Shown: piece by piece, positions 11,661 through 29,070 of the stretch | Position numbering within the stretch: position 1 is the first letter of the stretch | Layout of the letters: each line of letters begins with the position of its first letter | DNA from: Pseudolabrys sp. FHR47 | GTDB lineage: Bacteria > Pseudomonadota > Alphaproteobacteria > Rhizobiales > Xanthobacteraceae | Assembly: GCF_005153485.1 (NCBI RefSeq) | Contig: NZ_CP039740.1 | Span: 4,157,001 to 4,221,000 of the forward strand | Length of the DNA stretch: 64,000 nt | Reading direction: 5' to 3' | Made by a program: the position numbers and the translations under genes | The notes under the pieces: generated by a model | What the model was told of the DNA's origin: nothing | The model's database searches: none | Seen by the model: only the letters and a program-made list of their open reading frames with translations

Positions 11661-11690
11661 GAAGGGCCGTCCCGATCGGGACGGCCCTTC
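11661..11690. terminator. perfect 30-base palindromic terminator
   Basis: A 15+15 base perfect inverted repeat (GAAGGGCCGTCCCGA and its complement). On the minus strand it is followed by TTTCATTT, so it is best read as the terminator of the tiny gene at 11719-11796. On the plus strand it sits two bases after the flavoprotein stop and can serve that gene too. Confidence 0.8.
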
Positions 11691-11718
11691 CATTGTCGAA
11701 CCGCAATCCGCGGGACCG

Positions 11719-11796
11719 CTAGCCGACGCGGAACCCCACCGAGGCGAGATTCCAGGTCGCGGATGCCGACGTCTGCGGCGATAGACAATGAGACAC
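11719..11796 (-). CDS. 25-codon small protein with a maximal ribosome binding site
   Basis: A GTG-initiated frame encodes a 25-residue peptide beginning VSHCLSPQTSASATW and ending NLASVGFRVG, then TAG. It is too short for ordinary gene finding. What supports it is the leader: AGAAAGGAGGTGATCCAG runs directly into the GTG (its last G is the first base of the codon), with AGGAGG at ideal spacing, and is complementary to about 18 bases of the alphaproteobacterial 16S rRNA 3-prime end. A dedicated terminator follows at 11661-11690. A TTGACG at 11876-11871, overlapping the stop codon of the upstream gene, could be its -35, but the matching -10 is poor. No transmembrane segment or known domain is visible. 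It may be a real small protein or a small RNA that binds 30S subunits. Confidence 0.6.
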   Translation of the reverse strand: MSHCLSPQTSASATWNLASVGFRVG

Positions 11797-11815
11797 TGGA
11801 TCACCTCCTTTCTGA
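11797..11815 (-). promoter_or_regulatory. extended Shine-Dalgarno complementary to the 16S rRNA tail
   Basis: The minus strand reads AGAAAGGAGGTGATCCA immediately before the GTG at 11796. The plus strand is therefore identical to the end of 16S rRNA (CTGGATCACCTCCTTTCT). Ordinary genes in this window show four to seven matching bases, for example AAGGAG before ccr. Pairing this long should saturate initiation or hold the ribosome. Confidence 0.75.
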
Positions 11816-11872
11816 TGTTGACGATCTCACCAAGTTAAGGCGTTCGCACAGATTTGGAAGTGGCTTCACCCG

Positions 11873-12796
11873 TCAAAACGGACTGATCGGAAAATATCGG
11901 AGCCACAGGTCGGTGAACCGCCCCTGCTCCCACAGGCGGAACAGCGCCCAGTTGATGGCCTGGCGCACGAGGTCGTTGCCCCGGCGGACCGCGATGCCGA
12001 CGCCCTCGCCGAAGAAACGGCTCTCCATATAGGGCCCGCCGACGAAGGCGCAGCAGCCGGCCGAATCCGTGCCATTGAGCCAGAACGACAGCGAGATGCC
12101 ATCGCCGAACAACAGATCGACCTCGCCCTTTTTCAGCGCCTCGCGCGCCGCCGCTACGTCAGGGAAGGGTCGCAGCTCGGCCTCGGTGAACAGCATCTTC
12201 AGATAGGCTTCGTGCGCGGTGCCGGCGACGACGCCAACTTTCTTGCCTTCGAGCGCGGCCGGGCGCACGTCGACAATGCCGGCATTCCGCCGCGCCACGA
12301 AACGCGCCGGCGTGCGGTAATAGGGATCGGAGAAGTCGACGCGCTTGCGCATCGCCGGCGTCGCCGCGAAGGAGGCGATCACCGCATCGCCCTGATTGGC
12401 ATTGAGGCTGTCGATCAAGGTGTCGTAACGGCGCATCTGCACCGTGCAGACGACCTTGATCTCCTCGCAGATCATCCGCGCCAGATCGACATTGAAGCCG
12501 ACCGGCGCCCCGTCCGGCCCGGCGTAATTGAACGGCGGATAATCGGTCTCGGTGAGAAAGCGAATCACGGTGAGGCGCGAGAGGTCGGGCCGTTCGGGCC
12601 GGCGGCGCGGATCCCAGAAGCCCGGCACGTCGGTTGGCGTGCGCACAGGGTTGGTATCCGGAGCGTCAACGGGCGGCTGGTCGCGCTGCTCGCCGGGCCG
12701 CGGCACATGGGCCTGCGGCCAGGCCGCGGTCGCGGTCAGCATCAACGCCAGCGCAGCAAACGCCGCGCGCCCCGTCAGCTTCTGGAAGAAACCCAT
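11873..12796 (-). CDS. periplasmic solute-binding protein, family 3 (amino-acid type)
   Basis: This 307-residue protein has a signal peptide (GRAAFAALALMLTATAAWPQA) followed by a Pro- and Asp-rich linker and a family 3 solute-binding domain with F-L-T-E-T-D-Y-P-P-F-N-Y and GFNVDLARMICEEI. It would bind an amino acid or similar small ligand in the periplasm. No permease or ATPase gene is adjacent, so it is either an orphan component or a receptor-like binding protein. The host-attachment-like gene lies upstream on the same strand, separated by a repeat. Confidence 0.85.
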   Translation of the reverse strand: MGFFQKLTGRAAFAALALMLTATAAWPQAHVPRPGEQRDQPPVDAPDTNPVRTPTDVPGFWDPRRRPERPDLSRLTVIRFLTETDYPPFNYAGPDGAPVGFNVDLARMICEEIKVVCTVQMRRYDTLIDSLNANQGDAVIASFAATPAMRKRVDFSDPYYRTPARFVARRNAGIVDVRPAALEGKKVGVVAGTAHEAYLKMLFTEAELRPFPDVAAAREALKKGEVDLLFGDGISLSFWLNGTDSAGCCAFVGGPYMESRFFGEGVGIAVRRGNDLVRQAINWALFRLWEQGRFTDLWLRYFPISPF

Positions 12797-28985: not shown

Positions 28986-29070
28986 TGGTGCCCCTGGCCG
29001 GACTCGAACCAGCACACCTTGCGGTACCTGATTTTGAGTCAGGCGCGTCTACCAATTCCGCCACAGGGGC
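28986..29070 (-). tRNA. tRNA-Leu, anticodon CAA
   Basis: The minus strand folds as an 85-base tRNA: acceptor GCCCCTG pairing with CAGGGGC, a D-arm with GGTAGACG, an anticodon loop CTCAAAA giving anticodon CAA, a long variable arm typical of leucine tRNAs, the T-loop GGTTCGAGTCC, discriminator A and an encoded CCA end. Confidence 0.96.

Follow-up and report, generated by a model that had tools for sequence, protein, structure and literature searches.

A short alphaproteobacterial RNA, whose leader complements nearly the whole 3′ tail of 16S rRNA, is best read as a ribosome-engaging mini-mRNA, for which translation, rather than the translated product, would be the object of selection. We place the probability of this reading, drawn from comparative sequence analysis, at about 0.5. 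Three features are invariant: the 16S complement, the normally spaced start codon, and the presence of a short, stop-terminated frame. It is unusual that selection keeps a frame, its length and its stop while the amino acids drift, and this combination points to translation as the function. The copy described here lies in a window of 64,000 nucleotides of Pseudolabrys sp. FHR47 (the window being the whole stretch of DNA analyzed) and is a member of a named family, CC2171, which itself is the recognized part of a much wider alphaproteobacterial RNA.

The locus and its parts

The element occupies the minus strand of the window (Table 1). The sequence AGAAAGGAGGTGATCCAG is found exactly at 11813-11796, overlapping a GTG codon whose first base is its final G, and the frame that follows, from the start codon at 11796-11794 to the TAG at 11721-11719, translates into the 25 residues VSHCLSPQTSASATWNLASVGFRVG. 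The 30-base perfect palindrome was also called by a terminator scan (14 pairs, tail TTTCATTTGCG; 1 terminator found versus 0.4 expected in shuffles). Leader, frame and terminator all lie at the positions originally given. A further helix, P1, joins codons 3-5 with the seven bases just 5′ of the terminator. The element had also been described as self-contained. Leader, frame and terminator bear this out and are kept in relatives, but the promoter is weak: the best hexamer pair in the window copy, CTTCCA-16-TTAACT, scores 6/12, and a tool scan of the window called no promoter at the locus. Of the 18 bases proposed to pair with the 16S tail, relatives conserve 14 (-16 to -3): positions -17, -2 and -1 vary, and base 18 belongs to the start codon. 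The sole tRNA of the window, a tRNA-Leu (CAA), lies at 28986-29070 on the minus strand.

Table 1. Features of the element in the window
Feature	Position	Strand	Evidence
Rfam RF01867 (CC2171 sRNA) match, whole model 1-159	11664..11820	-	cmscan, 99.8 bits, E 1.3e-19
Putative -35, CTTCCA, weak	11855..11860	-	best hexamer pair at the family's usual place; no tool-scan call
Putative -10, TTAACT, weak	11833..11838	-	first base at -42
Leader GAAAGGAGGTGATC, complement of the alphaproteobacterial 16S rRNA 3′ tail	11799..11812	-	sequence; invariance in relatives; duplex energy
25-codon frame, GTG...TAG, VSHCLSPQTSASATWNLASVGFRVG	11719..11796	-	translation; frame conservation
Helix P1, 5′ strand CATTGTC (codons 3 and 4 plus one base of codon 5)	11784..11790	-	covariation; window fold
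Helix P1, 3′ strand GACAATG, abutting the terminator	11691..11697	-	covariation; window fold
Intrinsic terminator, 30-base perfect palindrome	11661..11690	-	T-rich flank 11660-11650

The locus had been thought to match nothing that can be named. This proved wrong, because it belongs to a family already in Rfam, RF01867 (CC2171, "Caulobacter sRNA"): the match spans the full model, its 99.8 bits exceed the family's gathering score of 75, and it is the only one in the genome. Rfam gives the entry type of RF01867 as Gene; sRNA. Landt et al. 2008 reportedly detected CC2171 with tiling arrays in Caulobacter. An excerpt of the Rfam 15 paper (PMC11701678) gives one additional covarying pair for the CC2171 family, and the Mesorhizobium huakuii sRNA MH_s33 bears the CC2171 Rfam label in an excerpt of PMC5596092. 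Among the records listed, a search of the literature accessible without subscription returned no functional study of RF01867/CC2171, no match to sequence strings of the element, and no description of the conserved frame, the near-neutral peptide, the class-wide P1 covariation or the meaning of the leader.

Distribution of the element

The element is widespread in Alphaproteobacteria yet not universal. With the RF01867 model, 94 of the 387 sampled alphaproteobacterial genomes matched at E <= 1e-3, with 15 of the 387 above the cut-off. Among the 60 weak matches fetched and inspected (about a dozen further ones were left out), the leader is present within two mismatches in 59 and lacking in one (L269), and where it is present a start codon and a short frame nearly always lie 3′ of it; the weak matches are thus mostly real members. 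A strict pattern search found the element in 98 of the 387 genomes and, in a sample of the whole phylum, in 54 of 88 alphaproteobacteria versus 1 of 161 other Pseudomonadota (split counted by hand). The reversed control pattern matched 3 of the 249 phylum-sample genomes and, among the matches listed, 1 of the 387 class-sample genomes. The single match outside Alphaproteobacteria (genome G812, stretch L371) has a 10-codon frame and neither P1 nor a terminator in the inspected stretch, and was put down to chance.

R1, a covariance model built from 70 sequences, matched 115 of the 387 genomes over model positions 1-175 at E <= 1.1e-7, a hand count that includes one genome (G086) whose match covers only 38 bases. 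A larger R1 tally, 206 of 387, was not used, because most of the weaker matches miss the first 15 or more model positions and seem to consist of a terminator alone. With its gathering score of 75 bits, RF01867 shuts out most of the members detected (15 of 387 genomes above it, versus 115 of 387 with R1), and it could be rebuilt from the wider set with P1 included.

At least 120 stretches matched in a scan across organisms; named carriers among the matches listed include Sphingomonas, Bosea, Methylobacterium, Microvirga, Brevundimonas, Azospirillum and Pseudolabrys. The copy of Pseudolabrys sp. Root1462 is 97% identical to the window copy over codons 5 to 25. Three genomes (G010, G350 and G357) hold two copies each, of clearly different types in G010 and G357. 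One copy (L118) resembles Sphingomonas-type members although the title of its contig names a Candidatus Kuenenia MAG, likely reflecting a binning error.

The search pattern also occurs on 27 viral contigs, seven of which carry the RNA (L325, L326, L328, L330, L336, L341 and L348, with L328 and L348 cut off). These seven copies are probably host sequence in or beside prophages, possibly near an integration site. A phage origin of the element was considered and rejected, since the seven copies look like host DNA and most of the other occurrences are unrelated genes of phage contigs. In the latter (L327, L332, L334, L343, L344, L349 and others), the same fully extended ribosome site, AAAGGAGGTGRTC, precedes a start codon.

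The leader and the 16S rRNA tail

The leader is the most invariant block in A1, an alignment of 70 of the 116 suitable references. Its consensus across relatives is the near-invariant GAAAGGAGGUGRUC, a complement of the 16S tail, and it diverges by only 0.7% in 61 independent close pairs. The search patterns themselves account for part of the conservation of the leader and of CATTGTC; the GAAA at -16 to -13, however, was absent from the patterns that collected the first sequence sets, and is conserved at 87/89 (G), 81/89 (A), 89/89 (A) and 89/89 (A). The 14-mer GAAAGGAGGTGATC has one exact match within the window and exactly one site in the 4.52-Mb genome, with none at one mismatch and 32 at two mismatches; the reversed control of the 14-mer has 8 sites in the same genome.

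Paired with the last 16 bases of the 16S tail, the leader has a computed duplex energy of -30.1 kcal/mol. To free its 14 bases from the predicted fold of the window RNA would cost about 4.6 kcal/mol. Over 158 clusters, the mean opening cost is 5.3 kcal/mol, as against 6.5 with the downstream part shuffled. A search for the 16S genes of the FHR47 genome gave 0 matches, the genes being masked or missing. The tail used is a 54-base alphaproteobacterial 16S end, checked against plasmid records, 237 of which match it (209 at >=99% identity); these come mostly from Azospirillum, Ensifer, Sphingobium and other alphaproteobacteria, and from some others, e.g., Acinetobacter.

Being an exact complement of the 16S 3′ end, the leader could in principle belong to a 16S rRNA gene fragment or to an antisense RNA. 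Yet the complementarity ends within the start codon, the remainder has its own conserved architecture and a terminator, Rfam found no rRNA in the window, and both the frame conservation and the P1 covariation contradict such an origin, which we regard as highly improbable.

The leader is the sole long sequence common to the aligned members, and hence the 16S tail is the only base-pairing partner visible across the class. This bears on the possibility of a classical trans-acting sRNA with mRNA targets, in which the frame would be either incidental or a second function. The Rfam type and the reported tiling-array detection in Caulobacter accord with such a role, but the frame is conserved and, because the 70 aligned sequences contain no long conserved block outside the leader, P1 and the terminator, no shared mRNA-pairing seed is visible besides the 16S complement. 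We consider this role decidedly unlikely.

Complements of the leader occur within the element itself, inside or 3′ of the frame, in many members (e.g., UCGCCUC at +50), with an aggregate score of 16.67 versus 14.73 in shuffles (largest shuffled-set mean, 15.08). Masking of the leader by such an internal anti-Shine-Dalgarno mimic was nevertheless dropped: taken singly, only 24 of the 158 clusters score above 95% of the shuffles made from them, and the leader is on average easier to open than with shuffled downstream sequence, so we claim no masking. One group of 14-codon members (L227 and L357-L361; VS..KRCHLAGIAR or similar) contains UCACCUC, a copy of the 16S tail, within the frame, and by eye the bases of these frames are near-identical between genomes, third positions included. 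In another member (L364), a 14-base complement of the leader, with one G-U pair, lies 3′ of the frame at about +116 from the start codon and fits a leader with G at position -5; masking of the leader is possible in that lineage.

The reading frame

Conservation of the frame was assessed in a first set of 160 unique sequences, after 6 pattern hits close to the end of their contig had been dropped, and in a wider set of 281 unique sequences forming 158 clusters (<70% identity), with viral contigs L325-L351 and L371 excluded. The frame is 20-28 codons long in 155 of the 160 unique sequences. When they are grouped into 90 clusters, 86 have their first in-frame stop within codons 20-28, as against 5 and 15 in the other two frames and a Markov null with a mean of 10.3 and a maximum of 24 in 500. 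The stop codons themselves vary (TGA 59, TAA 19 and TAG 11 in the first set). With a broader bracket, codons 14-36, the count in the wider set is 154 of 158 clusters, versus 41 and 47 in the other frames; the remaining 4 of the 158 have frames of 55-58 codons.

Base composition and indels agree with this picture. GC per codon position within the frame is 0.60/0.58/0.70, compared with 0.64/0.63/0.64 in stop-free Markov sequences, and the third-position rise is confined to the frame, with no rise past the stop. In the 61 close pairs, which were taken from sequences with a 14-36-codon frame (a filter that removes few, 4 of 158 clusters), the frame past codon 5 holds 4 indels (3 with a length divisible by three), whereas the stretch of similar length from the stop to +130 holds 70 (65 with a length not divisible by three). 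The count of 70 comes from free-end alignment; an earlier count of 79 included gaps forced by the cut at +130.

Given the conserved stop position, the third-position GC bias and the scarcity of indels, the frame is, as judged from these comparisons, under selection and very likely translated. Conservation of frame and leader in relatives had been named beforehand as the test of the original prediction, and both are conserved. An extract of Schrader et al. 2014 (PMC4117421) describes Caulobacter ncRNAs, mostly intergenic, as untranslated by ribosome profiling, which would count against a translated frame if CC2171 is among them.

One lineage, represented by L219 (357-521, minus strand) and L385 (138-305, minus strand), has a longer frame of 55-56 codons behind the same leader. 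Its translation, VSKSMKILAAASVLAFGTVLSGAALAGC..., resembles a secretion signal and has no Pfam match, so that a genuine protein may have arisen from the element in this lineage.

The encoded peptide

The original prediction named a small protein and a 30S-capturing RNA as plausible alternatives, and proposed to set synonymous bias in the frame against conservation of the leader only. The two are not on a par: the frame is kept, as a small protein would require, but the peptide evolves near-neutrally. In the 61 close pairs, the frame carries 9.2% substitutions and the stretch past the stop 10.1%, compared with the 0.7% of the leader given above, and differences within the frame are spread evenly over the codon positions (84, 90 and 83). 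No purifying selection on amino acids was detected in these pairs (pN/pS 0.81 versus 0.85 in shuffled columns, with 150 of 400 as low), nor in an earlier set of 40 pairs (0.77 versus 0.90, with 56 of 500 as low). Amino-acid constraint is thus not detectable in the pairs compared, and weak selection on the peptide may remain.

The one near-invariant piece of the peptide, MSHC in CATTGTC-type members, coincides with the P1 strand, and where P1 differs in other lineages it is replaced by MSS, MSN, MSK or VSR. Of the CATTGTC-type members, 55 of 88 contain a tryptophan, and a TW motif is common among them. An RNA motif, GGAGCARCCT, is read, by eye, in different frames in different lineages. Four tested peptides had no match in Pfam or NCBIfam.

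These observations bear on an ordinary small-protein gene, i.e., a strongly initiated peptide of 14-36 residues that is active in the cell and diverges fast between lineages. The conserved frame, stop and third-position GC bias, the MSHC and frequent TW motif of CATTGTC-type members, and the lower pN/pS of the first pair set all speak for it. Yet the larger set of pairs gives a pN/pS no lower than that of shuffled columns, the frame diverges about as much as the loop that follows, MSHC is the coding reading of a P1 strand and shifts with it, and GGAGCARCCT changes frame by lineage. Because of the near-neutral pN/pS, the tie of MSHC to P1 and the lack of Pfam or NCBIfam matches for the four peptides, a conserved product seems unlikely; a conserved small protein, the initial reading of the element, was dropped after the first two of these results, and we now hold a small-protein gene to be rather doubtful. 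That the frame is kept around a near-neutral peptide tells against the small-protein option and favors selection for engaging the ribosome.

Helix P1 and the fold of the RNA

P1 appears, from covariation, to be a helix conserved across the class. In A1, 79.2% of the cells pair at the P1 register, compared with 22-50% when the register is slid, and 69 cells are double-changed, compared with 21.3 ± 3.7 in shuffles; 7 P1 pairs have any double change, versus 5.5 in shuffles, a number that 50 of 500 shuffles reach. A partner test covered 152 of the 158 clusters; of the others, 4 had no called terminator and 2 had one that lay too close. For the 71 clusters that lack CATTGT, the mean score with their own partner strand is 11.35, as against a permuted maximum of 9.42 in 1000, and 30 of the 71 individually beat 95% of foreign partners. 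The variant strands include CATGGTT/GACCATG, ATGAGATT/AATCTCAT, GTGAG/CTCAC and GCATC/GATGC. RNAalifold on A1 did not predict P1, giving the terminator and a 3-pair leader hairpin instead.

The predicted fold of the window RNA (-83.4 kcal/mol, z -4.23) has P1 flush with the terminator and the GUG unpaired; the last seven bases of the leader pair with upstream bases, if the transcript begins that far up. A bound 30S subunit covers a region of the mRNA that includes +7. Since P1 begins at +7, it would lie in the mRNA channel.

The position of P1 also suits an untranslated 30S trap, in which the RNA binds the tail, P1 blocks accommodation and the frame only ends occasional translation cleanly. 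The strong computed duplex between leader and tail, the start of P1 within the stretch under the bound 30S, and the stable window fold, with P1 formed and the GUG unpaired, fit such a trap; the third-position GC bias along the frame, on the other hand, suggests that elongation is frequent enough to matter, and we consider the trap unlikely.

Promoter, transcript and neighboring genes

Promoter-like hexamers have a preferred upstream position: in 122 of the 158 clusters, the first base of the best -10 candidate falls between -44 and -41, and the promoter score reaches at least 8/12 in 71 of the 158, versus 26 of 158 with shuffled upstream bases. From a start near -29, the predicted transcript is 146-247 bases long (median 176; 123 clusters measured).

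Neighboring genes fall into 226 clusters, the largest with 9 members, so that none is common beyond close relatives. The downstream neighbor has the opposite orientation in 81 cases and the same in 62 (62/143 co-oriented); in the window, the gene downstream of the element is convergent. A leader-peptide attenuator of the downstream gene would share with the element a short frame followed by a terminator, but given the convergent next gene in the window and downstream neighbors that are unshared and lie in either orientation in the family, the probability of such an attenuator is next to nil. The element seems, from its genomic settings, to be a stand-alone unit. The Pseudolabrys copies (that of the window, that of Root1462 and a third, L151) have a downstream neighbor in common, which looks like a flavoprotein gene.

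Proposed function

In the mini-mRNA reading that we prefer, the leader would present the 30S subunit with the complement of nearly the whole 3′ tail, at normal spacing to the start codon, and 30S subunits would bind the RNA in the cell. P1 would then slow or gate the passage from binding to elongation. The ribosome would translate the short frame enclosed by P1, meet the stop and depart, and the 3′ strand of P1, together with the terminator, would seal the 3′ end of the RNA. The physiological effect would presumably consist in occupying, or reporting on, the pool of free 30S subunits; titration of 30S or sensing of free ribosomes is the effect that we favor; alternatively, the effect could depend on the state of the RNA after translation.

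In a more specific form, the element would be a ribosome-directed counterpart of 6S RNA: its leader would out-compete mRNAs, the 30S would be held at P1 and released by translating an arbitrary frame, and the ribosome pool would thereby be buffered or sensed. In this full form, the proposal is speculative and probably too bold.

An RNA with an invariant complement of the 16S tail, if kept by many alphaproteobacteria, would make it possible to test directly in Caulobacter whether a dedicated RNA regulates the pool of free 30S. Were the mini-mRNA reading true, a family now filed as an sRNA would need re-annotation, and catalogues of small proteins based on ribosome profiling may hold frames without a selected product.

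Comparison with known systems

The closest known relative is RF01867 itself, with which the element shares sequence and fold over the whole model. RF01867 is filed as an sRNA, whereas the element as described here has a conserved, translated-looking frame, a much-compensated helix, an invariant 16S complement and a wider distribution.

By its proposed mode of action, the element resembles 6S RNA, which mimics the natural substrate of RNA polymerase, holds the enzyme and is released once the polymerase works on it. The likeness is one of analogy, in that a substrate mimic could hold a central machine until it is used; the target here would be the 30S subunit, there is no homology, and sequestration is only proposed. 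SgrS/SgrT is a dual-function sRNA, and a structured small RNA with a short frame is common to both; in the present element, by contrast, the peptide is unconserved and no class-wide mRNA-pairing seed is visible. The rpsO mRNA acts by entrapment of the 30S subunit, and by analogy a structure close to the start codon may hold an already bound 30S in both cases, but neither a gene for a ribosomal protein nor a protein ligand plays a part here, as far as seen.

Finally, according to an excerpt of PMC13009471, Staphylococcus aureus relies in general on extended Shine-Dalgarno sites. Pairing with the 16S tail beyond the core is thus common to both systems, as far as that excerpt goes (PMC13009471); unlike the general use described there, the extended complement here belongs to one dedicated gene, with no other site in the genome within one mismatch.
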